NCBI GenBank assembly: GCA_031291305.1
Contig: JARLJH010000063.1
Coordinates: 62,001 to 126,000, forward strand
DNA: 64,000 nt
Origin: Rhodoferax sp.
GTDB lineage: Bacteria; Pseudomonadota; Gammaproteobacteria; Burkholderiales; Burkholderiaceae_C
Direction: 5' to 3'
Shown piece after piece: positions 19,105-63,502 of this stretch. The position numbers and the translations under genes were made by a program. The number at the start of each line of letters is the position of its first letter. Positions within the stretch are counted from its first letter, which is position 1. The notes below the pieces were generated by a model. That model did not search any database. It saw only the letters and a program-made list of their open reading frames with translations, and was not told the DNA's origin.

Positions 19105-19118
19105 GGCTGCGTCATTTA

Positions 19119-19172
19119 CTATAGATAATAGAGCTAACTTCCCTTGCAAAACAAGGGCTAGAAGTCATTTTT
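19119..19172 (-). repeat. Palindromic repeat copy upstream of zapE
   Basis: On the plus strand the copy reads CTATAGATAATAGAGCTAAC through CAAGGGCTAGAAGTCATTT. Its core is the hairpin CCCTTG/CAAGGG (19141-19157, loop CAAAA). It fills most of the gap between lpdA and zapE and contains the alternative TTG start of zapE. It has the same orientation as the aceF copies. Confidence 0.65.
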
Positions 19173-20608: not shown

Positions 20609-20706
20609 AAAAATTCCGCCTTTTGAAGTATGTCTGGAAGCGACCAGCCAAGCACAGTCCTGCTGTGTTGGTGATCGTCCTGGGACATCCTGGGTTATGA
20701 AAGTAA

Positions 20707-20743
20707 GATATAAAAATAAGAGCGTTATACATAGGTATAACGC
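20707..20743 (-). terminator. Terminator-like hairpin between odhB and lpdA
   Basis: Two perfect nine-base arms, GCGTTATAC and GTATAACGC (20722-20730 and 20735-20743), flank a four-base loop. Read on the minus strand they are followed by the T-rich stretch TCTTATTTTTATAT. This could act as a weak intrinsic terminator or attenuator that lowers lpdA expression relative to sucA-odhB. The stem is AT-rich, so efficiency may be low. The hairpin is the core of one copy of the intergenic palindromic repeat. Confidence 0.45.
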
Positions 20744-20760
20744 GGGCTACAGGCCAATTT
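20709..20760 (-). repeat. Palindromic repeat copy between odhB and lpdA
   Basis: On the plus strand the copy runs from ATATAAAAATAAGAGCG to GCGGGCTACAGGCCAATTT. The right part GGGCTACAGGC is identical to the matching part of aceF copy 2. Its central hairpin (20722-20743) is annotated separately as a possible terminator. Confidence 0.65.
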
Positions 20761-20768
20761 CTTATAAA

Positions 20769-22067
20769 TCAGATATCAAACAACAACCGAGCCGGATCTT
20801 CCAGCGCTTCCTTCATCGCAACCAGACCCAACACAGCTTCGCGACCATCAATGATGCGGTGGTCGTAGCTCATGGCAAAGTAGTTCATCGGGCGCACCAC
20901 CACCTGGCCGTTTTCGACCATGGCGCGGTCCTTGGTGGCGTGCACGCCCAGAATGGCACTTTGCGGCGGGTTGATGATGGGGGTGGACATCATCGAGCCG
21001 AAGGTGCCACCATTGCTGATCGAGAAGGTGCCACCCGTCATTTCATCCATGCCCAGCTTGCCGTCGCGCGCCTTGGTGCCGAATTCGGCAATCTTCTTCT
21101 CGATGGCCGCAAAGCTCATCTGGTCGGCGTTGCGCAGAATCGGCACCACCAAGCCACGGGGTGAACCCACCGCGATACCAATGTCAAAGAAGCCGTGGTA
21201 AACGATGTCGGTGCCGTCCACCGAAGCATTGAGCACAGGAAACTTCTTCAAGGCGTGAACCGCTGCCTTAACAAAGAAGCTCATGAAACCCAGCTTGACG
21301 CCATGTTCTTTCTCGAAGCGCTCCTGCATGCGCTTGCGCATGTCCATCACCGGCGCCATGTTGATCTCGTTGAAGGTGGTCAGGATGGCGTTGGTGCTTT
21401 GTGACTGAATCAGACGCTCGGCCACACGAGCGCGCAGGCGACTCATGGGGACGCGCTGCTCCGGGCGGCCAGCCAGCTCAGCTGCCAAATTACTGGCGGG
21501 CGCTGCAACCTGAGGCAATAAAGTGGCTGGAGCCTTTGCAGGCATTGCGGTGGCAGCTGCAACTTTAGGTGCGGCTGCCGACGCTGTTGCACCGCCTGCC
21601 ACGGCAGCCAGAACGTCGCCCTTGGTCACGCGGCCATCTTTGCCCGTGCCTGCAACCGAGCCTGAGGCGAGCTGGTTGTCTGCCATCAGCTTGGCTGCCG
21701 CCGGCATGGTGACACCGGCCATTGAAGCGCTAGCGGATGCCGCTGCAGCCACAGGTGCTGCCGCTGCCGCTGATACAGCCGCCATGGCCTGCATCACAGG
21801 TGCCACCGATACGGCACCAACCACACCTTCTGTGTCAATGCGGGCAATGAGCTGGTCAGCCGCCACGGTGCTGCCGTTGGGTTCAACGAGTTCAACGATC
21901 ACACCAGCCGATGGCGCAGGAACTTCCAGCACCACCTTGTCGGTCTCCACATCGATCAGAATTTCATCCACGGCGACGGCGTCACCGACTTTTTTCTTCC
22001 ACTGCAACAGGGTGGCTTCTGCCACGGACTCGGACAGTTGCGGGACTTTGACTTCTACGATTGCCAT
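20769..22067 (-). CDS. odhB: OdhB, dihydrolipoyl succinyltransferase (E2 of 2-oxoglutarate dehydrogenase)
   Basis: The E2 core transfers the succinyl group to CoA. One N-terminal lipoyl domain (about residues 1-80) carries the lipoylated lysine in [14 protein letters not shown]. It is followed by a long Ala/Val/Pro linker, a peripheral subunit-binding domain ([20 protein letters not shown], then GRVTKGDV), a second Ala-rich linker and the catalytic domain ending [12 protein letters not shown], with the His-Asp pair. The linker DNA at 21480-21540 bears a faint likeness to the repeat found in the aceF linkers. The gene is 58 bases downstream of sucA. Confidence 0.96.
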
Positions 22068-27078: not shown

Positions 27079-27190
27079 TGTTGTCTCCGGTGGTGTTGGC
27101 TGAACTGAATTCATAATTATGTTCCGCGAACTTGCATTAGGCTGACTGCAAGCCCCACTTGCGATGCTCATTGCGCTCAAGTTTCTCCTG

Positions 27191-27240
27191 AATCAATAGC
27201 TTAATACCATTGATCAATGAGGGCTAGCAAGCTATTTTAT
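27191..27240 (-). repeat. Palindromic repeat copy at the end of the isochorismatase-fold gene
   Basis: The copy reads AATCAATAGCTTAATACC to GAGGGCTAGCAAGCTATTTT. It can fold through outer arms AATAGCTT/AAGCTATT (27195-27202 and 27229-27236) and an inner ATTGATCAAT. The stop codon and last codons of the gene at 27232-27834 lie inside it, so the element provides the natural end of that protein. Confidence 0.6.
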
Positions 27241-32501: not shown

Positions 32502-32938
32502 GATATCCCCTGAAGTTAGGTATATTTTCCGCCTCTAGCCCAGGTAGACACTTGGTATACAGCTCTTAATTGAATAGTGCTTGGCAACCCTGCCCCGCTC
32601 TATTCCAGTTGCATTGCCACCTGGCTGCGCACGGACCTCTCGTGTCGCGGGGTTTGATCAGGAAATGACGCATCAGCGTTACGCCAATCCGCTGGTCGGG
32701 ACAACGTTTTTTGCGCTCTCCTTGAACAGAATCCCGCAGGTAAACGGACCTGCCGACCCAAATACCGCGAGCCCTCTCAAATCTGCATGGCCTTGAGCTT
32801 GTCCACGATGCTGCCTAACTCTGTGCGCCAACGAACAGAACATCCTGCGATGTAGCGAGACACTGCAATGAGTTCACAAAAAACCAGGTTGCCGAAGCCA
32901 AACGGCGACACACCTTCAACTCCAAAAAGGACCATGTC
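32502..32938. other. Gene-free stretch before the redox operon
   Basis: I see no convincing gene in these 437 bases. The first third holds one copy of the intergenic palindromic repeat (32521-32582). A minus-strand open segment ending at 32777 encodes a plausible-looking tail (SRYIAGCSVRWRTELGSIVD...KLKAMQI) without a start nearby, which might be a decayed gene end. The promoter of the downstream operon must lie in this stretch, but no strong sigma-70 boxes stand out. AAGGA at 32926-32930 serves as ribosome site for the next gene. Confidence 0.5.
32521..32582 (+). repeat. Palindromic repeat copy after the molybdopterin oxidoreductase gene
   Basis: The copy is in the opposite orientation to the others on this list except the one near 48.7 kb: TTTTCCGCCTCTAGCCCAGG to CAGCTCTTAATTGAATAGTGC. 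It starts about 20 bases after the stop codon of the oxidoreductase gene and may mark or contribute to transcription termination, although no T-run follows. Confidence 0.6.
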
Positions 32939-48690: not shown

Positions 48691-48752
48691 AAAACAAAGC
48701 CCTAGCCCCTACAAAATATGCCAAGATAGCTATAACTACAATAGCATTCTGA
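48691..48752 (+). repeat. Palindromic repeat copy upstream of the diguanylate cyclase gene
   Basis: The copy reads AAAACAAAGCCCTAGCCCCT through AGATAGCTATAACTACAATAGC, in plus orientation. It lies in the 204-base gap between the hemerythrin-GGDEF-EAL gene (ends 48763) and the diguanylate cyclase (starts 48558), so it may end one transcript or lie in the leader of the next. Confidence 0.6.
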
Positions 48753-51700: not shown

Positions 51701-52140
51701 GCGCGCTGGTGAGCGGCCTCCAGACCCAAGCCGTCCTGCAAAGCCAGCACCACCAAAGCCATCCGTTTGTCCTTATCCAGGATGTGGTGAGCCAGCCATT
51801 GGGTCAAAAAAGGAAAAAGATCGCACAACACGGCCTGGAGAGGTCGATCGCCAGAACGCAGCTCGGTGATATGGGCAAAAAACCGTTGGTGATTCTGCAC
51901 GTGCTCATCCAGCCAGGCATCACCGCTCAGATGGGTTTGCCAGATGCCTTCTTCGCTGCGAAAGTGGTAGTCGGCATAGTCGGACAGTTCGCCCAAAATG
52001 GCGTTGGTTTCATGCTCCGAGGCACCCTCTATGTATTGCTGTACCAGGCGGTTCAGCAAACCGACCAGCATGTGATGTTGCTCGTCAATCAGCGTTATGC
52101 CTGTCTCAAGATGGGGGCCCCAGGGGAAAATTTCAAACAT
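48763..52140 (-). CDS. Hemerythrin-PAS(3)-GGDEF-EAL-CZB multidomain c-di-GMP protein
   Basis: This is an 1125-residue cytoplasmic protein. Domains in order: a bacteriohemerythrin domain (about 1-135; iron ligands suggested by LIDEQHH, YHFRSEE, EHVQNH and AHHILDKD), three PAS domains (about 180-545), GGDEF with intact IGGDEFAVLL, EAL with catalytic residues present (GFEALIRW, LDDFGTGYSS, EGVETEA, GQGYAIARPM), and a C-terminal zinc-binding CZB-like domain (CRFGQWL with flanking histidines). It probably senses oxygen or redox state through the diiron site and adjusts cyclic di-GMP. ATG 52140 is chosen over TTG 52155. Confidence 0.9.
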   Translation of the reverse strand: MFEIFPWGPHLETGITLIDEQHHMLVGLLNRLVQQYIEGASEHETNAILGELSDYADYHFRSEEGIWQTHLSGDAWLDEHVQNHQRFFAHITELRSGDRPLQAVLCDLFPFLTQWLAHHILDKDKRMALVVLALQDGLGLEAAHQRAEEALRSNEGRWRLLLSRSAQAQASGSTLERNLSTLIDNLPAGLAVVDNTTHRFIFVNPWFCQMLGYSQDELLKLPVKDIHRPEDLVVLQAKFPSLTVDNRKVGLELPLVRKNGTQFICYVERIAIEFEGQVSAMSLYTDVTERIAAKATMQASELHLRTLVNTIPDLIWLKDVNGVFLSCNPAFERLYGVPEAFIVGKTDYDFVPQELADSFRENDRAAMTVGGPTVNEEWLTFADSGQGALMETTKVPMRTPDGQLLGVLGISHNITERRAAEAALEVERLRLQNAIEAAQAGTWEVDFTAGLILFNERTAIMLGYEQDKVRERGYDEYVASIHPEDRVRVQQSITQHMCGESPRFEAEMRLPHQDGHWVWCRCLGRVTQRDATGQPRLVAGIIIDISEHKAHQAQLKYLTQHDALTGLPNRKLFVETLALAMCRCAAPHKHLGVAYLDLDGFAAINDVHGQELGNQLIVELGRRLVGGLLDSQYLAHIGGDEFAVLLGGLDQTDAHVVQASRLLTAVAQPLELDGLSLSVTASIGVTLYPQNDKVDAEQLLRQSDQAMYQAKLAGKNCFRVFDPVKDETTREQFLRLGEIRRALVNQEFVLFYQPKVHLKSGEVIGFEALIRWQQPERGLVPPGLFIPLLERHPLAITLGNWVIETALAQLAQWQTQGIRTVVSVNIDGMQLHDPDFVERLQGQLRQQPTVSPSQLELEILETGALENMPHVSALIGRLQALGIECALDDFGTGYSSLTFLKQLAAHTIKIDQSFVRGMQDDAEHAAIVYSVLGLAHNFDRRPLAEGVETEALGQMLIEFGCEYGQGYAIARPMPSAEVAHWLAQWHAPDSWAHSEAVSPGDMSILLAEVEHQACLHKLYAFATGKTTVEPAAGQICRFGQWLTKPATQQRFAQHAGFATVTTVHARLHQQADLLLDHIRAGAAHEQVAQLLADMDAHSQQMHDAMRMMRQARPDAEGPIPGFSLL

Positions 52141-52496
52141 GGTGTTGCTGATCAAGGGACGCTGGCCAAAGCGCGGGGTTCATCTCGTGTGTTGGGGATC
52201 TCAATGAAGGCTGGCACCGCAGTGGAATATTACACGACGGCTGTGTTTTGATGACAAGGCGCGGCCTGGTTCGCGGCACCAGATTTGGGATGCGGTGCTA
52301 GGCGCGAATCCCGCCGTTTAGCTTTGCTCAACAAGCGATTTGCAACGACGCAATGCGCCCAAAGATCGGCAGGGAAAAGTACAACTTATCGCTTTGCAAG
52401 CCATACAGCATTTGATGCATTCCATATCGCTTAAGCAGACAGCACAAAGCCCGAACCGTTACCAGTTCGGGCTTTGTGTCAGGATGCAGCCTTGAA
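52141..52496. other. Intergenic region upstream of the c-di-GMP protein and downstream of lpd
   Basis: These 356 bases hold no supported gene. The right part contains a strong inverted repeat that I annotate separately as a terminator. The left part must contain the promoter of the hemerythrin-GGDEF-EAL gene; no clear boxes or ribosome site are visible before ATG 52140. No copy of the palindromic repeat is present. Confidence 0.5.
52443..52478 (-). terminator. Intrinsic terminator after lpd (perfect 14-bp stem)
   Basis: Arms CACAAAGCCCGAAC and GTTCGGGCTTTGTG (52443-52456 and 52465-52478) form a perfect 14-base stem around an eight-base loop, 18 bases after the lpd stop codon. The AAAGC...GCTTT ends provide short A and U tracts on either strand, so it may work in both directions. 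Only minus-strand transcription from the aceE-aceF-lpd operon is expected to reach it. Confidence 0.75.
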
Positions 52497-54359
52497 CTAC
52501 TTGCGCGTCGGCGGCACATCCGTGCAACTGCCATGCGCAATCTCCGCCGCCATGCCAATCGATTCACCCAGCGTCGGGTGCGGGTGGATGGTCTTGCCGA
52601 TGTCCACCGCATCCGCGCCCATCTCAATCGCCAGCGCCACTTCACCAATCATGTCACCCACATGCGTGCCGACCATGCCACCGCCCAGAATCTTGCCGTG
52701 GCCGTGGGCTTCGGGGGAATCATCAAACAAGAGCTTGGTGACACCTTCGTCGCGGCCATTGGCGATGGCGCGGCCGGAGGCGGCCCAGGGGAACAGGCCC
52801 TTTTTGACCTTGATGCCTTGGGCTTTGGCCTGGTCTTCTGTGAGGCCCACCCAGGCGACTTCGGGGTCGGTGTAGGCCACGCTGGGGATGACGCGGGCGT
52901 TGAAGGCTGCTGCGGCCAACTCCTTGTTGCCTTGGAGTTCACCGGCGATGACTTCGGCGGCCACATGCGCCTCGTGCACCGCCTTGTGCGCCAGCATGGG
53001 CTGGCCGACGATGTCGCCGATGGCGAAGATGTGGGGCACGTTGGTGCGCATCTGGATGTCGACGTTGATGAAGCCTCGGTCGGTGACGACCACGCCAGCC
53101 TTGTCGGCGGCGATTTTTTTGCCGTTGGGCGTGCGGCCGACGGCTTGCAGCACCAGGTCGTAAGTTTGCGGCTCGGGCACTTTCACGCCCTCCTCTGCCG
53201 GGGCAAATGTGACCTTGATACCTTCTGGAGTTGCCTCGGCAGCAACAGTTTTTGTTTTCAACATGATGTTGTCAAACCGTGGCGCGTTCATCTTCTGCCA
53301 GATCTTGACCAGGTCACGGTCGGCACCTTGCATCAGGCCGTCGAGCATTTCGACCACATCCAGGCGTGCGCCGAGCGTGCTGTAAACCGTGCCCATTTCC
53401 AGGCCGATGATGCCGCCGCCCAGGATCAGCATGCGCTTGGGGACTTCTTTCAGCGCCAAGGCGCCAGTGCTGTCCACCACGCGCGGATCGTTGGGCATGA
53501 AGGGCAGGCGCACGGCTTGGCTACCGGCGGCGATGATGGCGCGCTTGAAAGCAATGACCTTCTTGCTGCCGGTTTTCTCTTGCGCCGTACCGCTGGTTTC
53601 TTCGACTTCCACGTGGTTGGCCCCGACAAACGCACCGTAGCCGCGCACGATGGTGACCTTGCGCATCTTGGCCATGGCGGCCAGGCCGCCGGTGAGTTTG
53701 CTAATGACTTTTTCTTTGTGACCGCGTAGTTTGTCGACGTTGACCACCGGTTTGCCAAAGTCCACGCCCAGGTCGCCCAGGTGGGCCACTTCGTCCATGA
53801 CGGCGGCCACGTGCAGCAGTGCTTTGCTGGGGATGCAGCCGACGTTCAGGCAGACACCGCCGAGCGTGGCGTAGCGTTCAACGACGACGACCTTGAGGCC
53901 GAGATCGGCGGCGCGGAAGGCTGCCGAGTAGCCGCCGGGGCCACCGCCCAAGACCAGCACATCGCAGTCCAGATCAGCCGCGCCACCGAAACTGGCGGCA
54001 TTGGGGACTGGTGCCGTAGCGGGTGTTGCTGCGGATTGTGTAGCTACCTGTGCAGTTTTCAAGGGGGCTAGAGGCTGATTTTCCTTGGTAGACGGTGCAG
54101 TTACGGGCTGTGCCGCATCACCCGCAGCCTCCAGCACCAGCAGCAGCGTGCCTTCGGAAACTTTGTCGCCAATATTGATCTTGAGTTCTTTCACCACGCC
54201 GCCGTGGCTGGAGGGGATTTCCATCGAGGCTTTGTCGCTCTCGACGGTGATCAGGCTTTGGTCAGCTTTGATGGTGTCGCCGGGTTTGACCAGCAGCTCG
54301 ATCACGGTAACTTCGGCGAAGTCGCCGATGTCGGGGACTTTGATGTCGATAAGTGCCAT
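52497..54359 (-). CDS. lpd: Dihydrolipoyl dehydrogenase (E3 of pyruvate dehydrogenase) with N-terminal lipoyl domain
   Basis: This 620-residue E3 begins with a lipoyl domain (about 1-80; lipoylated Lys in VESDKASMEIPSS), then a linker (about 82-128) and the flavoprotein part with LVLGGGPGGYSAAFRAADLG, the redox disulfide GGVCLNVGCIPSKALL, GGGIIGLEMGTVYS and the active-site HPHPTLGES. The lipoyl-E3 fusion is characteristic of the betaproteobacterial pyruvate dehydrogenase. The linker includes an in-frame copy of the palindromic repeat (residues about 93-112, ENQPLAPLKTAQVATQSAA). The gene is 215 bases downstream of aceF, separated by a large palindrome. Confidence 0.95.
   Translation of the reverse strand: MALIDIKVPDIGDFAEVTVIELLVKPGDTIKADQSLITVESDKASMEIPSSHGGVVKELKINIGDKVSEGTLLLVLEAAGDAAQPVTAPSTKENQPLAPLKTAQVATQSAATPATAPVPNAASFGGAADLDCDVLVLGGGPGGYSAAFRAADLGLKVVVVERYATLGGVCLNVGCIPSKALLHVAAVMDEVAHLGDLGVDFGKPVVNVDKLRGHKEKVISKLTGGLAAMAKMRKVTIVRGYGAFVGANHVEVEETSGTAQEKTGSKKVIAFKRAIIAAGSQAVRLPFMPNDPRVVDSTGALALKEVPKRMLILGGGIIGLEMGTVYSTLGARLDVVEMLDGLMQGADRDLVKIWQKMNAPRFDNIMLKTKTVAAEATPEGIKVTFAPAEEGVKVPEPQTYDLVLQAVGRTPNGKKIAADKAGVVVTDRGFINVDIQMRTNVPHIFAIGDIVGQPMLAHKAVHEAHVAAEVIAGELQGNKELAAAAFNARVIPSVAYTDPEVAWVGLTEDQAKAQGIKVKKGLFPWAASGRAIANGRDEGVTKLLFDDSPEAHGHGKILGGGMVGTHVGDMIGEVALAIEMGADAVDIGKTIHPHPTLGESIGMAAEIAHGSCTDVPPTRK
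54025..54082 (-). repeat. In-frame palindromic repeat copy inside the lpd linker
   Basis: The DNA encoding residues about 93-112 of the E3 protein matches the intergenic repeat family. The coding strand reads AATCAGCCTCTAGCCCCC at its start and then ACAGGTAGCTAC. It encodes ENQPLAPLKTAQVATQSAA, similar to the peptides from the three copies in aceF. It is in the same orientation as those and keeps the reading frame. Confidence 0.75.
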
Positions 54360-54397
54360 GTTGTTCTTTCGGTTAACTTGGAATAACTGTGCGTGAT

Positions 54398-54519
54398 GCG
54401 GGTGCTGTCTGATTTCACCCGCAGCGTGCGCTGGGTGTCTGACGCAGCGGAATCAAGGAGGAGGTTTGGGCCAAGCCCAAACCGGGGGACATCCGCGGAG
54501 TCAGACACCCAGCGCACGC
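54398..54519. repeat. Nested large palindrome between aceF and lpd
   Basis: The outer arms 54424-54451 and 54492-54519 match at 26 of 28 positions, including a perfect 20-base core (GCGTGCGCTGGGTGTCTGAC and its complement). The loop contains a second hairpin with nine-base arms GGTTTGGGC/GCCCAAACC (54463-54483) around CAA. A third hairpin, GCGGGTG/CACCCGC (54398-54422), lies next to it. None has a T-run, so this is not a standard terminator. It may be a small non-autonomous mobile element, or an mRNA structure that stabilises or processes the aceEF-lpd transcript. Confidence 0.8.
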
Positions 54520-54574
54520 CGCTAATCGTTGTCGGGGCGATTTCATAGGTTGAGGTCGCGGTTAGCCGAAATTT

Positions 54575-56353
54575 TTAGAGCAGGACCCTACGGAAATCAC
54601 CAAGGATCTGGCCGAGGTACACGTTGAAGCGTGCGGCAGCCGCGCCATCGATGACGCGGTGGTCCCAGGTCAAACTCAGCGGCAGCATCAGGCGCGGCTG
54701 GAAGGCTTTGCCGTCCCAAATGGGCTCGATGGTGGAGCGGCACACGCCCAGAATGGCGACCTCGGGCGCGTTGATGATGGGCGTGAAGTAACGCCCACCA
54801 ATGCCGCCCAGGCTGCTGATGGTGAAGCTGGCACCGGTCATTTCCGCCGGACTCAGTTTGCCGTCACGCGCCTTTTTGGCCAGCTCGCTCATTTCCTGGC
54901 TGATCTGGAAAATGCCTTTTTTGTCGGCATCCTTGATCACAGGCACCATCAGGCCGTTGGGTGTGTCGGCGGCAAAACCGATGTGGTAGTACTGTTTGTA
55001 GACCACCGCATCACCGTCCAACGAGCTGTTGAAGTCGGGGAACTTCTTCAGTGCGGCCACGCAGGCTTTGATCAGGAAGGCCAGCATGGTCACTTTCACA
55101 CCACTCTTCTCGTTCTCTTTGTTGGTGGAGACGCGGAAGGCTTCCAGGTCGGTGATGTCGGCGTCGTCATGGTTGGTGACGGCCGGAATCATGATGGCGT
55201 TACGCAGCAGGTTGGCGCCGCTGATCTTCTTGATGCGGCTCATCTCCTTGCGCTCGATCGGGCCGAACTTGGCAAAGTCCACCTTCGGCCAGGGGATCAG
55301 GCCCAAACCTGCGCCGTCGTTGGCGGCAGCGGCGACAGGCTTGGCAGCTTGCTGCGCGGCAATGGCGGTGGTTTGCACCGCGCCGCTCATCACCGAGCGG
55401 GTGAAGGCTTGCACGTCGGCATCGGTAATACGGCCTTTGAGACCCGTGCCTTTGACCTCGACCAGCGGTACACCCAGCTCACGGGCGAACTTGCGCACCG
55501 AAGGCGAAGCATGCGGCAAACCCAATGGTGCGCTGGTGGGGTTGTGGGCAGGCATCGCCGCAGCGGCGGTAACCGGCACTTGAGTTGCTACAGAAGTAGC
55601 AGCTACTTGCCCAGGTGAAACAAGGGCTGGAGCCTGTTTTTGTTCAGATGTTTGGTCAGAAACAGAAGCTGGTGTTGGTGTCGGCGCGGTCGCCTGCCCA
55701 ACGGACAAACCTGCTGCTGGCGCAGTGCCTTGCACAATGAGCAGCAAGTCGCCAATGTTGACCGTGTCACCCAACTTGACCTTGAGCTCCTGCACGACCC
55801 CGGCTGCGCTGGACGGGATTTCCATTGAGGCTTTGTCAGACTCGACGGTGATCAGGCTTTGCTCCAGCTTGATACTGTCGCCGACCTTGACCATGACCTC
55901 GATCACGGTCACGTCCTTGAAGTCGCCAATATCGGGCACGCGTACTTCCACCGTGCCACTCGCTACAGAAGGAGTAGCTGCTTGCACAGGTTCCTCCTGG
56001 GCTACAGGCTGATTGGATGCAGAAACTGGTGCAGCAGCCTCGCTCGCTACAGAGGTAATAGCTGCTTGCGCTTGATTGACGGGGGCTACAGCCTGATTTG
56101 ATGTTGATGCCTCGTCCGCCACTTCCAGCAGCAATACCAGCGAACCTTGCTTAACCTTGTCGCCCAGGGCGACTTTGAGTTCTTTGACCACACCGGCGTG
56201 GCTGGAGGGAATTTCCATTGAGGCTTTGTCGGACTCAACCGTCAGCAGGGACTGTTCTGCACGCACCGTGTCGCCGGCCTTGACCAGCAGCTCGATCACC
56301 GACACTTCGTCGAAGTCGCCAATGTCGGGCACTTTGATTTCAATAGTTGCCAT
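54575..56353 (-). CDS. aceF: AceF, dihydrolipoyl acetyltransferase (E2 of pyruvate dehydrogenase)
   Basis: E2 transfers the acetyl group to CoA and forms the complex core. Two lipoyl domains (about 1-80 and 134-212) each contain VESDKASMEIPSS with the lipoylated lysine. A subunit-binding domain follows (HASPSVRKFARELGVPLVEV), then the catalytic domain ending TWDHRVIDGAAAARF. Linkers between domains carry three in-frame copies of the palindromic repeat (residues about 84-103, 112-131 and 238-258). At 592 residues it has two lipoyl domains, against three in Escherichia coli. It lies 20 bases after aceE. Confidence 0.96.
   Translation of the reverse strand: MATIEIKVPDIGDFDEVSVIELLVKAGDTVRAEQSLLTVESDKASMEIPSSHAGVVKELKVALGDKVKQGSLVLLLEVADEASTSNQAVAPVNQAQAAITSVASEAAAPVSASNQPVAQEEPVQAATPSVASGTVEVRVPDIGDFKDVTVIEVMVKVGDSIKLEQSLITVESDKASMEIPSSAAGVVQELKVKLGDTVNIGDLLLIVQGTAPAAGLSVGQATAPTPTPASVSDQTSEQKQAPALVSPGQVAATSVATQVPVTAAAAMPAHNPTSAPLGLPHASPSVRKFARELGVPLVEVKGTGLKGRITDADVQAFTRSVMSGAVQTTAIAAQQAAKPVAAAANDGAGLGLIPWPKVDFAKFGPIERKEMSRIKKISGANLLRNAIMIPAVTNHDDADITDLEAFRVSTNKENEKSGVKVTMLAFLIKACVAALKKFPDFNSSLDGDAVVYKQYYHIGFAADTPNGLMVPVIKDADKKGIFQISQEMSELAKKARDGKLSPAEMTGASFTISSLGGIGGRYFTPIINAPEVAILGVCRSTIEPIWDGKAFQPRLMLPLSLTWDHRVIDGAAAARFNVYLGQILGDFRRVLL
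55582..55642 (-). repeat. In-frame palindromic repeat copy 3 inside aceF
   Basis: This copy encodes about residues 238-258 of AceF (QKQAPALVSPGQVAATSVAT), in the linker between lipoyl domain 2 and the subunit-binding domain. On the plus strand it shows the element landmarks TTGCTACAGAAGTAGCAGC and CAAGGGCTGGAGCCTG. It is the most diverged of the three aceF copies and keeps the frame. Confidence 0.75.
55961..56018 (-). repeat. In-frame palindromic repeat copy 2 inside aceF
   Basis: This copy encodes about residues 112-131 of AceF (SNQPVAQEEPVQAATPSVAS), just before lipoyl domain 2. Plus-strand landmarks are CGCTACAGAAGGAGTAGCTG and GGGCTACAGGCTGATTGGAT. It is separated from copy 1 by only about eight codons, so the linker is built almost wholly of two repeat units. 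Confidence 0.8.
56044..56103 (-). repeat. In-frame palindromic repeat copy 1 inside aceF
   Basis: This copy encodes about residues 84-103 of AceF (SNQAVAPVNQAQAAITSVAS), directly after lipoyl domain 1. Plus-strand landmarks are CGCTACAGAGGTAATAGCTG, CTTGCGCTTGATTGACG and GGGCTACAGCCTGATTTGAT. Of the four coding copies it is the closest to the intergenic members. Confidence 0.82.
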
Positions 56354-56373
56354 GTTGTGTCTCTTTTCTGGGC

Positions 56374-59076
56374 TCAGGCGTGAAGGGGGTTGACCTTGTC
56401 AATGTCGATGCCGTATTTGGCAATGGCCTCGGCCACACGTGCCACCGGCACGGTGCCGTCTTCGCTCAGCGCCTTGAGCGCCGCCACCACGATGTAGTAG
56501 CGGTTGATCTCAAAGTGCTCGCGCAACTTGCTGCGGAAATCACTGCGGCCAAAGCCGTCGGTGCCCAGCACCTTGTAGGTGCGACCTGCCGGGATGAAGG
56601 CACGAATCTGCTCTGCGTAGGCCTTGATGTAGTCGGTGGAAGCGACCACTGGGCCACTGTGATCTTGCAATTGCTGCGTCACAAACGGCACCACCGGCGC
56701 GTCTGTGGGGTGCAGCAGGTTCACGCGCTCGGCCGCCTGGCCGTCGCGGGCCAGTTCGTTGAAGCTGGGGCAGCTCCAAACATCGGCGGTCACGCCCCAG
56801 TCCACCGCCAGCAGTTTTTGCGCCACCAGGCTTTCGCGCAGGATGGTGCCCGAGCCCAGCAGTTGCACGCGTGGTCCTGCGGCGCCTTCGGCACCAGGTT
56901 GACACATGTACATGCCTTTGATGATCTGCTCTTCGGTCCCTGCCATCAGGCCGGGCATGGCATAGTTCTCGTTGAGCAGGGTCAGGTAATAGAAGACGTT
57001 GTCCTGCTTTTCAACCATGCGCCTCAATCCGTGGTGCAGGATGATGCCGACTTCATGCGCGAAGGTCGGGTCATAGCTGACGCAGTTGGGAATCGTGCCA
57101 GCCAGGATGTGGCTGTGGCCGTCTTCGTGCTGCAGGCCTTCGCCGTTGAGCGTGGTCCGGCCAGACGTGCCGCCCAGCAAAAAGCCGCGCGCCTGCATGT
57201 CACCCGCCGCCCAAGCCAGATCGCCAATGCGCTGGAAACCGAACATCGAGTAGTACACGTAGAACGGCACCATGATGCGGTTGCTGGTGCTGTAGCTGGT
57301 GGCCGCAGCAATCCAGCTGGCCATGCCGCCGGCCTCGTTGATACCTTCCTGCAGGATCTGGCCCTTGACGTCTTCCTTGTAGTACATGACCTGGTCTTTG
57401 TCCACCGGGGTGTATTGCTGGCCGGCCGGGTTGTAGATGCCAATCTGGCGGAACAGGCCTTCCATACCAAAGGTGCGTGCTTCGTCCACCAGAATCGGCA
57501 CCACGCGTGGGCCCAGAGCCTGGTCACGCAGCAGTTGCGTGATGAAGCGCACATAAGCCTGCGTGGTGGAAATCTCGCGACCCGGCGCCGTGGGCTCCAT
57601 CACCGACTTGAAGGTCTCAATGGATGGCACGGTAAACGATTCGTTGGCCTTGGTGCGACGGTGTGGCAGGTAGCCACCCAGTTCCTGACGGCGGGCGTGC
57701 AGGTAACGCATTTCGGGCGTGTCGTCGGCGGGCTTGTAAAACGGAATGTCCGGCAGTTGACTGTCCGGAATCGGAATGTTGAAGCGGTCCCGGAAGGTTT
57801 TGATGTCGTCGTCGGTGAGCTTCTTGGTCTGGTGAACGTTGTTCTTGCCCTCGCCCGCCTTGCCCATGCCAAAACCCTTGACGGTCTTGATCAGCAACAC
57901 CGTGGGTTGGCCGGTGTGGTTGACAGCGGCGTGGTAGGCGGCATAGACCTTTTGCGGGTCATGGCCACCACGACGCAGGTTCCAGATGTCGTCATCGCTC
58001 ATCTTTTCGACCATCTTCGCGGTTTCGGGTGAGCGACCAAAGAAGTTTTTGCGGACAAAGGCACCGTCATTGGCCTTGAAGGCCTGGTAATCGCCGTCCA
58101 GCGTGTCCATCATGATCTTGCGCAGCGCGCCGTCTTTGTCGCGCGCCAGCAGAGGGTCCCAATTGCCGCCCCAGATCAGCTTGATCACGTTCCAGCCCGA
58201 GCCACGGAACTCGCCTTCCAACTCTTGAATGATCTTGCCATTGCCGCGCACCGGGCCGTCCAGGCGCTGCAGGTTGCAGTTGACCACGAAGATCAGGTTG
58301 TCGAGCTTCTCGCGCGCCGCCAGACCAATGGCGCCCAAGGATTCGACCTCGTCCATCTCGCCGTCGCCGCAGAACACCCAGACCTTGCGGTTGCTGGTGT
58401 CGGCTATGCCGCGGGCATGCAGGTATTTCAGAAAGCGGGCTTGGTAGATCGCCATCAGCGGCCCCAAGCCCATCGACACGGTGGGAAACTGCCAGAACTC
58501 GGGCATCAGCTTGGGATGTGGGTAGCTTGACAAGCCCTTGCCACCGGTTTCCTGGCGGAAATGCAGCAACTGCTCTTCGGTCAGACGGCCTTCGAGGTAA
58601 GCGCGGGCATAAACGCCGGGTGCCACGTGGCCCTGGATGTAGATGCAGTCGCCGCCGTGGTTCTCGCTCTCGGCATGCCAGAAGTGGTTGAAGCCTGCGC
58701 CAAACATGTGCGCCAAAGAGGCAAACGAGCCAATGTGCCCACCCAAGTCCCCACCGTCTTCAGGGTGATGGCGGTTGGCTTTGACCACCATAGCCATAGC
58801 GTTCCAGCGCATATAGGCGCGCAGGCGTTCTTCAATTTCAATGTTGCCGGGGCAGCGTTCTTCCTGCTCTGGCTCAATCGTGTTCACATACGCCGTGTTG
58901 GCTGAAAACGGCATGTCCAGGCTGTTTTGGCGGGCATGTTCCAGCAGCTGCTCCAGCAAGAAGTGGGCACGTTCAGGGCCCTCGCTCTCAATGACGGCGC
59001 TTAAAGCGTCCATCCATTCACGGGTTTCCTGGCTGTCCGCGTCGATGGCTGCGCGGTTGTCGGGTAATGCTGACAT
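56374..59076 (-). CDS. aceE: AceE, pyruvate dehydrogenase E1 (homodimeric type)
   Basis: E1 decarboxylates pyruvate with thiamine diphosphate. The 900-residue product has the homodimeric AceE layout: DGGDLGGHIGSFASLAHMFG, the ThDP site FCGDGEMDEVESLGAIGLAA followed by VVNCNLQRLDGPVRGNGKII, and the transketolase-like C-terminus with LLGGTSGRTTLNGEGLQHED. It starts at ATG 59076 and heads aceE-aceF-lpd. A sensor kinase gene diverges upstream across about 165 bases that contain a palindromic operator-like site. Confidence 0.97.
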   Translation of the reverse strand: MSALPDNRAAIDADSQETREWMDALSAVIESEGPERAHFLLEQLLEHARQNSLDMPFSANTAYVNTIEPEQEERCPGNIEIEERLRAYMRWNAMAMVVKANRHHPEDGGDLGGHIGSFASLAHMFGAGFNHFWHAESENHGGDCIYIQGHVAPGVYARAYLEGRLTEEQLLHFRQETGGKGLSSYPHPKLMPEFWQFPTVSMGLGPLMAIYQARFLKYLHARGIADTSNRKVWVFCGDGEMDEVESLGAIGLAAREKLDNLIFVVNCNLQRLDGPVRGNGKIIQELEGEFRGSGWNVIKLIWGGNWDPLLARDKDGALRKIMMDTLDGDYQAFKANDGAFVRKNFFGRSPETAKMVEKMSDDDIWNLRRGGHDPQKVYAAYHAAVNHTGQPTVLLIKTVKGFGMGKAGEGKNNVHQTKKLTDDDIKTFRDRFNIPIPDSQLPDIPFYKPADDTPEMRYLHARRQELGGYLPHRRTKANESFTVPSIETFKSVMEPTAPGREISTTQAYVRFITQLLRDQALGPRVVPILVDEARTFGMEGLFRQIGIYNPAGQQYTPVDKDQVMYYKEDVKGQILQEGINEAGGMASWIAAATSYSTSNRIMVPFYVYYSMFGFQRIGDLAWAAGDMQARGFLLGGTSGRTTLNGEGLQHEDGHSHILAGTIPNCVSYDPTFAHEVGIILHHGLRRMVEKQDNVFYYLTLLNENYAMPGLMAGTEEQIIKGMYMCQPGAEGAAGPRVQLLGSGTILRESLVAQKLLAVDWGVTADVWSCPSFNELARDGQAAERVNLLHPTDAPVVPFVTQQLQDHSGPVVASTDYIKAYAEQIRAFIPAGRTYKVLGTDGFGRSDFRSKLREHFEINRYYIVVAALKALSEDGTVPVARVAEAIAKYGIDIDKVNPLHA

Positions 59077-61796: not shown

Positions 61797-62419
61797 GTCT
61801 CATCCCCAAAAAAGGCACTGTTTATGTCATCGACGACGATGAGGCTGTGCGTGATTCGCTGCAATGGATGCTGGAAGGCAAAGATTACCGGGTGCGCTGC
61901 TTTGACTCCGCCGAATCGTTCCTGAACCGCTACGACGCGCGCGAAGTGGCCTGCCTGATCGTTGATATCCGCATGCCGGGCATGACCGGGCTGGAACTGC
62001 AAAACCGCCTGCTTGATGCCCGCTCACCGCTTCCCTTGGCGTTCATCACCGGGCATGGCGACGTGCCTATGGCGGTGGACACCATGAAAAAGGGTGCCAT
62101 GGACTTCATCCAGAAGCCTTTCAACGAAGAGCAACTGGTGCCGCTGGTGGAGCGCATGCTCGACCAGGCCAAGGAATCCTTCTCCGAATACCAACACACC
62201 GCGGCGCGCGACGCCCTCATGGCGCGCCTGACCTTGCGCGAATCGCAGGTGCTTGAGCGCATCGTGGCGGGTCGCCTGAACAAGCAGATTGCCGACGATC
62301 TGGGCATCAGCATCAAAACGGTGGAGGCGCACCGCGCCAACATCATGGAAAAGCTCAACGCCAACACCGTGGCCGATTTGCTGAAAGTGGCCCTCGGCCC
62401 CAATGCTGCCAAAGCCTGA
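61793..62419 (+). CDS. FixJ-family two-component response regulator
   Basis: The 208-residue regulator has a receiver domain with the phospho-acceptor Asp58 in LIVDIRMPGMTG and Lys in FIQKPF, and a LuxR-type helix-turn-helix (LTLRESQVLERIVAGRLNKQ, then IADDLGISIKTVEAHRANIM). ATG 61793 is inside the kinase stop (ATGA overlap), so the two are translationally coupled and form a cognate pair. The target genes are unknown; divergence from aceE makes the pyruvate dehydrogenase operon one candidate. A repeat-derived terminator follows. Confidence 0.93.
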   Translation: MSLIPKKGTVYVIDDDEAVRDSLQWMLEGKDYRVRCFDSAESFLNRYDAREVACLIVDIRMPGMTGLELQNRLLDARSPLPLAFITGHGDVPMAVDTMKKGAMDFIQKPFNEEQLVPLVERMLDQAKESFSEYQHTAARDALMARLTLRESQVLERIVAGRLNKQIADDLGISIKTVEAHRANIMEKLNANTVADLLKVALGPNAAKA

Positions 62420-62438
62420 TCAAACCCGCTTTCTCTTT

Positions 62439-62496
62439 GCTATTTTAAAGATAGCTACATATGCCCGCACCATAAGGACTAGCGGGCTTTTTTATT
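62439..62496 (-). repeat. Palindromic repeat copy between the FixJ-type regulator and folD
   Basis: The copy reads GCTATTTTAAAGATAGCTAC through GGACTAGCGGGCTTTTTTA. Compared with other copies, the GC arms are extended and followed by six Ts, turning the element into a credible intrinsic terminator (62463-62496). Confidence 0.65.
62463..62496 (+). terminator. Intrinsic terminator after the FixJ-type regulator
   Basis: GCCCGC (62463-62468) and GCGGGC (62482-62487) form a six-base GC stem with a 13-base loop, followed at once by TTTTTTATT. This is a good rho-independent terminator for the kinase-regulator operon. It is formed by the right half of a palindromic repeat copy, so this copy appears to be used as a terminator. 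The folD start codon lies 13 bases beyond the T-run. Confidence 0.75.
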
Positions 62497-62508
62497 AATG
62501 GATCAAAA

Positions 62509-63378
62509 ATGAACACTTCTGCCCACAGCGCCCAGATCATTGACGGCGTCGCCTTGTCCAAAAAGCTGCGCATTGAGGTGACCGAGCGCGCATCGGCCCT
62601 CAAGGCGCGTGGCATCACGCCCGGCCTGGCGGTGATTCTGGTGGGCGAGAACCCGGCCAGCCAGGTCTATGTGCGCAACAAGGTCAAGGGTTGTGAAGAC
62701 TGCGGCTTTCACTCGGTGCTGGAGAAATACGACGCCTCGTTATCGGAAGCCGAACTACTGGCGCGCATCGCCACCCTGAATGCCGATCCGACAATTCACG
62801 GCATTCTGGTGCAGTTGCCAGTGCCCAAACACATCGACGCCAGCAAAGTGATCGAGGCAATTTCCCCGGCCAAGGACGTGGATGGCTTTCATGTCGCCAG
62901 CGCTGGCGCCTTGATGACCGGCATGCCGGGTTTCTGGCCCTGCACACCGTACGGCTGCATGAAAATGCTCGAATCGATTGGCTACGACCTGCGCGGCAAG
63001 CACGCCGTCGTGATTGGCCGCAGCAACATCGTCGGTAAACCCATGGCATTGATGCTGCTGCAAAAGAGCGCCACCGTCACCATCTGCCACAGCGCTACCG
63101 CAGATTTGAAAGCCATGACACTGCAAGCTGATGTGATCGTGGCCGCCGTCGGCAAGCGCAATGTGCTCACCAAAGACATGGTCAAACCTGGTGCCGTGGT
63201 GCTGGACGTGGGCATGAACCGCAACGATGAAGGCAAGCTGTGTGGCGATGTTGACTTTGAAGGCGTGCGCCAGGTCGCGGGCTACATTACCCCGGTTCCG
63301 GGTGGGGTAGGCCCCATGACCATTACCATGTTGCTTGTCAACACCCTTGAAGCTGCCGAACGCGCTGCAAACCAATAA
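62509..63378 (+). CDS. folD: FolD, methylenetetrahydrofolate dehydrogenase/cyclohydrolase
   Basis: FolD interconverts methylene-, methenyl- and formyl-tetrahydrofolate with NADP. The 289-residue product has the catalytic lysine region [33 protein letters not shown], the aspartate in PAKDVDGFH, and the Rossmann motif [18 protein letters not shown], ending with [23 protein letters not shown] 62509 follows the terminator closely. I see no good ribosome site (AATGGATCAAAAATG), so a promoter or start may be unusual here. Confidence 0.96.
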
Positions 63379-63382
63379 CATG

Positions 63383-63502
63383 GCGGGACAGACCGCAGTA
63401 CGCAAAGTGACCCTGCTCTGCCCTCGACTAACCTGAAACTTTGCGGGACAGACCGCAGTACACGAAGTGACCCAGCTCTGTCCTCAACTGATTAATATGA
63501 CC
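63383..63502 (+). repeat. 60-bp tandem duplication with REP-like inverted ends
   Basis: Two 60-base units (63383-63442 and 63443-63502) share GCGGGACAGACCGCAGTAC, AGTGACCC and GCTCTG. Within unit 2, GGACAGA and TCTGTCC form seven-base inverted ends about 24 bases apart; unit 1 has one mismatch. The second unit runs six bases into the prlC coding start, so the repeat sets the leader of that gene. The form recalls REP or BIME elements, often mobilised by Y1 transposases, but no such transposase is in the window. Confidence 0.7.

Follow-up and report, generated by a model that had tools for sequence, protein, structure and literature searches.

The uptake signal sequences (USS) of the Pasteurellaceae and the DNA uptake sequences (DUS) of the Neisseriaceae, which have cores of 9–12 bp, are the only uptake-type sequences known to us. 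Here we describe a DNA motif in Rhodoferax sp. (GenBank assembly GCA_031291305.1; 4.98 Mb), copies of which occupy four interdomain linker segments of the pyruvate dehydrogenase (PDH) genes aceF and lpd in a stretch of 64,000 nucleotides (the window; positions 62001–126000 of contig JARLJH010000063.1, here C30). It is very probably a genome-wide motif that arises in place and is driven or selected. Like USS and DUS, it occurs on both strands in hundreds of copies, within genes as well as between them but more rarely in coding DNA; it has species dialects, is rare in a viral collection and, at the coding sites tested, evolved in place by substitution. Unlike them, it has no short core of their kind, being a quasi-palindrome of 57–67 bp with about 45–53 bits of information and roughly one copy per 6 kb, and its connection with uptake is proposed here by analogy.

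In the portions of the published accounts available to us, USS are described as evolving by point mutation and as under-represented in constrained coding DNA (PMC7811141), and as located in genes with an orientation bias (PMC2346458); dialects are described for DUS (PMC3630211), the origin of which may also involve recombination (PMC2397512). A report on spaced pentamer pairs, in its accessible part, lists GCTTAT(N)5AAGCG from Acidovorax ebreus (114 copies) and ATAGCT(N)22CAAAAG from Polaromonas naphthalenivorans (125 copies), both as unexplained; the largest number of significant pairs in its set, 140, belongs to Rhodoferax ferrireducens T118 (PMC5217627). The Acidovorax pair fits positions 16–21 and 27–31 of the present motif exactly, in what we call below its GCG dialect, and the Polaromonas pair appears to match it as well. 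These pairs differ from what we describe in being mostly intergenic and unexplained, and that part of the report contains neither the full motif nor its in-place origin, dialects or linker copies (PMC5217627). The accessible part of the metabolic genome paper on R. ferrireducens mentions repeats only as clustered regularly interspaced short palindromic repeats (CRISPR; PMC2755013). Within the open-licence literature we found no interpretation of the motif, no evidence of its origin in place and no link to the linkers. An earlier reading of the window (the original prediction) knew of no description of the linker repeat; a piece of the motif had been published uninterpreted.

Two further classes of repeat invite comparison. 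Rickettsia palindromic elements (RPE), like the present motif, are palindromic repeats read in frame inside genes, and they are inserted elements. The motif differs from them in that motif-less orthologues show no gap at the three genes tested, where no in-frame insertion lengthening the host gene was observed. Repetitive extragenic palindromes (REP) and bacterial interspersed mosaic elements (BIME) likewise comprise many short palindromic copies that are often intergenic. The motif is not an extragenic stem-loop palindrome of this type: it lacks a conserved stem-loop, 26 of the 66 copies sampled lie wholly in called genes, and its origin at the tested sites was in place.

Motif copies in the linkers of aceF and lpd

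In the window, aceF (54575..56353, minus strand) encodes PDH E2 with two lipoyl domains, an E3-binding domain and a catalytic domain, and lpd (52497..54359, minus strand) encodes dihydrolipoamide dehydrogenase (E3) with an N-terminal lipoyl domain, both assigned from open reading frames (ORFs) and Pfam matches. The window was scanned with a position weight matrix (PWM) of 57 columns, trained on 27 strings from 26 places on contigs C1–C7, none on the window's own contig; these strings were selected by a perfect core, and one near-perfect palindrome was entered in both directions. Exactly ten matches exceed 30 bits, the runner-up scoring 10.1 bits and the best match in six Markov-resampled windows (one strand each) 6.9 bits. 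Four of the ten are linker segments, which align as a single family of 61-nt direct repeats and which, as had been predicted, all lie on the minus strand in one common frame. Linker 1 of aceF holds a first copy (56044..56100; SNQAVAPVNQAQAAITSVAS; 52.7 bits) and, 84 nt from it, a second (55960..56016; SNQPVAQEEPVQAATPSVAS; 32.0 bits); a third lies in the aceF linker that joins the second lipoyl domain to the E3-binding domain (55585..55641; QKQAPALVSPGQVAATSVAT; 42.1 bits), and a fourth between the lipoyl domain and the FAD domain of lpd (54026..54082; ENQPLAPLKTAQVATQSAA; 41.8 bits).

When each linker peptide was recoded synonymously with the codon usage of the genome, none of 20,000 recodings per peptide reached the real PWM score at any of the four linkers. 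The linker DNA thus fits the motif far better than the peptide demands, and the proposal that DNA is shared with the repeat survives this comparison. A sequence-only covariance model (R1) built from 32 non-linker copies found the first linker-1 copy genome-wide at an E value of 4.5e-10, with 150 of 1805 candidates scored in that search. The forward frame of the motif does encode a linker-like peptide, and one might suppose that Ala/Pro/Val/Gln linkers merely resemble the repeat by coincidence at the peptide level. This supposition is already contradicted by the recoding result, and also by linkers that have no match: those of 15 motif-poor genomes, considered below, and those of a second E2 gene in the window (20772..22067, named 2-oxoglutarate dehydrogenase E2 by NCBIfam, over cut-off), which are similarly Ala-rich and have no motif copy, their best score being 10.1 bits. 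We consider such a coincidence vanishingly improbable.

The six remaining matches score 30.2–44.7 bits. Four are intergenic, at 20705..20761 (minus strand, 33.7 bits, adjoining the 2-oxoglutarate dehydrogenase E2 gene), 62437..62493 (minus, 32.3 bits), 32524..32580 (plus, 32.1 bits) and 48691..48747 (plus, 30.2 bits); one at 19116..19172 (minus, 44.7 bits) overlaps the end of a called ORF by 34 nt, and one at 27182..27238 (minus, 38.4 bits) is essentially intergenic, with an overlap of 4 nt. The original prediction that the linkers share the motif with six intergenic copies is thus correct as to the sharing, whereas two of the six overlap gene ends.

Abundance and placement in the genome

The core TAGCSC-N19-AGCTAT has 220 exact matches genome-wide, compared with 2 for the reversed pattern. 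A sample of 464 kb, comprising the window and twenty 20-kb stretches, contains 76 PWM matches above 18 bits and 66 above 25 bits, a density of about one per 6 kb that extrapolates to a total of some 700–800 chromosomal copies. In 400 kb of a second genome of the genus, G010, 71 copies exceed 20 bits, and the strands are mixed, on which ground a replichore polarity of the motif was rejected. The copies are accordingly dispersed, number in the hundreds and occupy both strands, as is the case for USS and DUS.

The 66 copies above 25 bits comprise 27 that are intergenic, 13 that overlap a gene edge and 26 that lie wholly inside called genes, counts that are approximate because the gene caller was a simple codon model, and that include the four linkers of the window. 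With 84% of the sample called coding and 26/66 copies wholly in coding sequence, the motif is depleted in coding DNA, another property of USS and DUS. Twenty of the 26 intragenic copies are nevertheless at least 150 nt from both gene ends, so that the repeat is not a matter of intergenic DNA and PDH linkers only. The genes that bear it include those for RlmI-like (an assignment below the cut-off of its curated model), PurK, AroE, DapF, GlmU, RNB and aminopeptidase proteins. Same-strand frame 1 is used by 13 of the 26 and opposite-strand frame 1 by 7, a preference that we read as following freedom from stop codons. Read in the forward frame, the motif is free of stops and yields Asn/Gln-Pro/Ala-Val-Ala, in agreement with the prediction that the repeat makes an acceptable Ala/Val/Gln/Pro linker in one frame. 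Specificity for PDH linkers finds no support, as there are copies in catalytic genes and one in a lipoyl E2 outside the PDH operon. The latter gene (L174:1–738, minus strand, cut by the end of L174) has a linker copy of 33.1 bits at residues 77–97, between its lipoyl (5–77) and E3-binding (162–196) domains.

Presence and absence among relatives

Among 35 genomes of the same genus, 18 have 18–239 core matches (motif-rich) and 17 have 0–3 (motif-poor); in 24 genomes of other families in the order the count is 0–2. The E2 gene was sought in 30 same-genus genomes, 13 of them motif-rich and 17 motif-poor. Of these, 27 yielded the locus, and G013 (motif-rich) and G017 and G018 (motif-poor) did not. 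All 12 motif-rich genomes with the locus carry a copy in an E2 or E3 linker, the best score per genome being at least 27.8 bits. None of the 15 motif-poor genomes does, no score on the coding strand, which was the strand searched, exceeding 14.0 bits; a few of these E2 loci include the linkers only in part, and there are loci that stop short of lpd. Linker copies therefore track the motif content of the genome (12/12 versus 0/15; Fisher 5.8e-8), and the idea of a linker sequence derived from the repeat also survives comparison with relatives that lack it. The named relatives that match the window's E2 best are mostly Rhodoferax genomes. A wider set of named E2/E3 loci contains linker matches above 20 bits in at least 21 of 80, with 34 copies, all on the same strand and in the same frame by eye; the figure is a lower bound, the matrix reflecting one dialect.

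On a tree of the E2, RlmI-like and PurK proteins of 18 genomes, the motif-poor genomes occupy three places. Six form one clade (support 0.996), and G006 stands next to motif-rich G032 (0.98). A branch with support 1.00 sets G003 and G021, themselves paired with a support of 0.76, apart from the remaining motif-poor genomes; their grouping with motif-rich G010 and G033 has a support of only 0.41. Because motif-poor genomes fall in three places and the motif is common to orthologous sites, its distribution reads as repeated loss, to which recombination could contribute. In a survey of 250 genomes of the family, TAGNNC-N19-AGCTAT has at least 20 matches in 45 (counted by eye, our genome and G010 included), where no control total exceeds 18, and several genera hold motif-rich and motif-poor species side by side. 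We see no sign in these sequences of a phage origin, because only 30 stretches in the viral collection match the exact core pattern of 15 letters.

Origin by substitution at conserved genes

At the RlmI-like gene, the motif is present at the same codons in all 8 motif-rich relatives searched (23.4–45.0 bits), compared with scores of −1.2 bits or less in the 8 motif-poor orthologues scored, a ninth orthologue being truncated. PurK carries it in 7 relatives (24.2–40.2 bits) versus at most 7.4 bits in 9 motif-poor genomes, and AroE in 7 relatives (29.7–47.5 bits) versus at most 5.6 bits in 9; G019 yielded no PurK or AroE match. The protein alignments over all three sites are gap-free, the one truncated orthologue excepted, and the three proteins nearly keep the length of their curated models. 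Because the motif-poor orthologues hold the same stretch without a gap, the motif at these three genes was written by substitution and not inserted. The same orthologues lend no support to the view of the motif as a generally mobile, inserting palindrome. Substitution in place, a further feature of USS and DUS, is thus observed at three orthologous coding sites; at the linkers and at intergenic sites, insertion may have played a part. The alignment at the RNB site is unclear. In AroE of G006 (L271), the motif-poor sister of motif-rich G032, a stretch shared with G032, CTGCAAAAAACAGAG, scores 5.6 bits and is possibly a decaying remnant of the motif.

An intergenic copy upstream of a quinone oxidoreductase-like (QOR) gene, the upstream neighbour of which we take to be pnp-like, is common to 8 motif-rich relatives (21.5–55.9 bits). 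It is absent in 8 motif-poor relatives, among which the G030 site is perhaps in another neighbourhood. Insertion or later deletion may have taken place in the pnp–QOR spacer.

Linker length and copy number

In the six motif-poor genomes that show linker 1, it measures 40–45 amino acids (aa). Among motif-rich genomes, those with a single copy above 18 bits have a linker 1 of 42 aa (G023 and G025), 55 aa (G019), 59 aa (G032) or 63 aa (G024), and those with two copies one of 53–62 aa (G000, G005, G010, G031 and G033); in G002, G004 and G022, where no copy exceeds 18 bits, it measures 44–49 aa. For linker 2 the range is 50–83 aa in motif-rich genomes and 48–74 aa in motif-poor ones; for the E3 linker it is 53–62 aa in nine motif-rich and 41–53 aa in three motif-poor genomes. 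Since G023 and G025 hold a copy within 42 aa, a motif copy can occupy a linker of ordinary length.

These lengths bear on the explanation that a mobile palindromic element was inserted in frame into the linkers and domesticated there in the manner of RPE. An element of this kind would account for a linker 1 of up to 63 aa as against 40–45, for the longer E3 linkers and for motif-bearing intergenic spacers that are often longer, and on account of these linker and spacer lengths we rate it slightly higher than we otherwise would. It is hard to reconcile with the equal length of the three orthologous coding sites in motif-poor species, with the copy in the 42-aa linkers, with linker lengths that rise in no fixed steps with copy number, and with the tendency of copies toward the dialect of their species. 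Domesticated insertion thus strikes us as quite unlikely. G000, G005 and G010 have the same spacing of exactly 84 nt between the two linker-1 copies, and this pair may be an old tandem duplication.

In L145 (G033), linker 2 of E2, between the second lipoyl and E3-binding domains, has a length of 81 aa and includes a repeat-like peptide unrelated to the motif (FNPPPLGEGRVG...SPPPQPSPSGGGS). It has the appearance of a genuine insertion, in frame, of another palindromic repeat.

Species dialects

The share of TAGCGC among TAGCSC cores was counted in 19 genomes. It is 0–4% in G000, G004, G005, G019, G024, G025, G031 and G032 and 63–73% in G002, G010, G022, G023 and G033, the GCG-dialect genomes. 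Shares in the other six are 2% (G014), 5% (G011), 9% (G008), 28% (G020), 38% (G013) and 44% (G026), and these six, for which there was no E2 or gene locus, stand outside the tests that follow. Among linker copies above 18 bits, those below this score being excluded, the variant base G occurs in 0/21 from low-share genomes and 7/13 from GCG-dialect genomes (indicative p 3e-4), and at the three gene sites in 0/16 versus 6/9 (indicative p 5e-4). The RlmI-like site agrees with the dialect in 9/9 cases, and here the amino acid is changed. The dialects therefore reach orthologous copies, although incompletely, and species dialects, known from DUS, are observed here too.

Concerted dialect shifts could also arise from templated rewriting, in which ectopic gene conversion or an abundant single-stranded template copies the motif onto partly similar DNA. 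Such copying would draw on the hundreds of similar copies in one genome, and it is compatible with private variants that the E2 and E3 linkers of L034 have in common. Coding copies, however, retain residues that are also present in motif-poor orthologues, and the alternative dinucleotides TT, CC and AG at profile positions 18–19 speak against one template, so that we find this mechanism rather improbable. Because of the private variants in L034, exchange between E2 and E3 linkers, which formed part of the original prediction, is possible.

Form of the motif and its possible recognition

The sequence logo, drawn from 66 copies above 25 bits from our genome and 67 from G010, reaches about 67 bp, and the consensus is roughly TTATAnG..AAATnGGCCTCTAGC(C/G)CTTgT..AA..AAG(G/C)GCAAGnAGCTATtaATTTTGTAGC. 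The information in 57 columns amounts to 45.5 and 52.9 bits, somewhat inflated by the use of profile-selected copies. Adjacent positions are strongly coupled at 18–19 (TT, CC or AG), 27–28 and 2–3. Pairing across the axis exceeds that of shuffles (p <0.05) at 4 of 21 position pairs in the set from our genome (3–43, 18–28, 19–27 and 20–26) and at no position pair in the G010 set. RNAalifold found no consensus structure in the motif copies, predicting zero pairs, and the region 52000–57000 of the window has no Rfam match. Strong adjacent coupling, weak axis pairing and the lack of RNAalifold pairs together suggest that the motif may act as double-stranded DNA read by a protein and not as an RNA hairpin.

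A hairpin or RNA function was rejected on the same observations: no consensus structure, weak axis pairing confined to our own genome's set and no Rfam match. A transcription terminator or other hairpin element of RNA or DNA would suit the quasi-palindromic form and the many intergenic copies near gene ends, but these folding results and the 26/66 copies wholly in called genes make it very unlikely.

The main rival to the reading developed below also begins with a DNA-binding protein: the motif would be bound by a nucleoid-associated protein or one that organises the chromosome, its hundreds of sites being selected as DNA, changing in place and co-evolving with that protein, with no role in uptake. 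The long two-fold symmetry with AT blocks, the strong coupling of adjacent bases, the lack of a conserved hairpin and the spread over both strands all agree with such a protein, and a DNA-binding protein that co-evolves with its sites would account just as well for the dialects and for evolution in place. That whole genomes repeatedly lack the motif would be odd for a chromosome organiser, however; no replichore polarity is seen in the 400 kb of G010, and no candidate protein was identified. On balance we judge this alternative unlikely, while taking it more seriously than the others.

DNA uptake as a possible driver

The explanation toward which we lean, with modest confidence, is that the motif arises in place, is kept by uptake drive and is tolerated in permissive PDH linkers. 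The four linker segments would then be four of the 700–800 copies of one long quasi-palindromic DNA motif, which a protein would recognise as double-stranded DNA. DNA bearing the motif would be taken up preferentially in natural transformation and then recombined, so that copies accumulate, as with the USS of Haemophilus and the DUS of Neisseria. Coding DNA would admit the motif where the protein tolerates the change, and the E2 and E3 linkers of PDH would be exceptionally tolerant, since the motif in its forward frame encodes an Ala/Val/Gln/Pro linker; further copies may have come from duplication or expansion of linker DNA. Uptake itself, as the driver, is put forward tentatively, by analogy with the known systems.

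Related bacteria offer some precedent. In the part of the study available to us, Verminephrobacter eiseniae shows type IV pilus-dependent transformation with evidence of selective uptake and is inhibited only to a limited degree by excess foreign DNA, and Acidovorax temperans gave transformants only with DNA of the same species (PMC4212676). Both belong to the Comamonadaceae, as does Rhodoferax, and they bear on the motif only indirectly.

A number of observations weigh against uptake or against a general origin in place. ComEC was found in all 36 genomes of the genus (34 over cut-off), motif-poor ones included, and does not track the motif; GspH-family pilins, which we take to be FimT-like, were found in 24 of 25 genomes, again without tracking it. 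ComEC, being universal, and the GspH family were accordingly rejected as partners of the motif. At 57–67 bp and about 45–53 bits, the quasi-palindrome is much longer than USS and DUS, and indeed far longer than any uptake sequence of which we are aware. Average linker length is greater in motif-rich genomes, and three single-copy linkers are among the long ones; insertion, duplication or expansion may for this reason have occurred at the linkers, where an in-place origin is only a possibility. The pnp–QOR spacer, judged by eye, is often, though not always, shorter in motif-poor genomes. Relative to homologues in the Protein Data Bank (PDB), the loops that carry the DapF and GlmU copies are longer by 11 and 7 residues. 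With regard to the dialects, G013, G020 and G026 have intermediate shares (28–44%), and the copies lack phylogenetic independence, so that the p values are indicative. In the GCG-dialect genomes, 6 of 13 linker copies have C, the three copies of G023 all among them, as do 3 of 9 gene copies, the mismatches at gene sites being PurK of G033 and AroE of G010 and G002.

With these reservations, we suggest as a possibility, still short of an even expectation, that the Comamonadaceae carry a third, independent bacterial self-recognition sequence, a quasi-palindromic uptake or recombination signal of 57–67 bp with dialects and repeated loss, which would have entered hundreds of genes one base at a time, altering proteins, and shaped the E2 and E3 linkers of PDH. 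With a motif several times longer than USS or DUS, and with rich and poor sister species, both the question of drive versus selection and the identity of the signal's reader become testable. A force acting at the level of DNA would here write stretches of peptide and alter residues in housekeeping enzymes, and conservation of a linker or loop need not, then, reflect protein function.

Other repeats in the window

Between aceF and lpd, an inverted repeat (54421..54522) has 31-nt arms that are 90% complementary and 40 nt apart; it has no Rfam match. At 63370..63489, a 60-bp unit occurs twice, head-to-tail, the two units being 83% alike.

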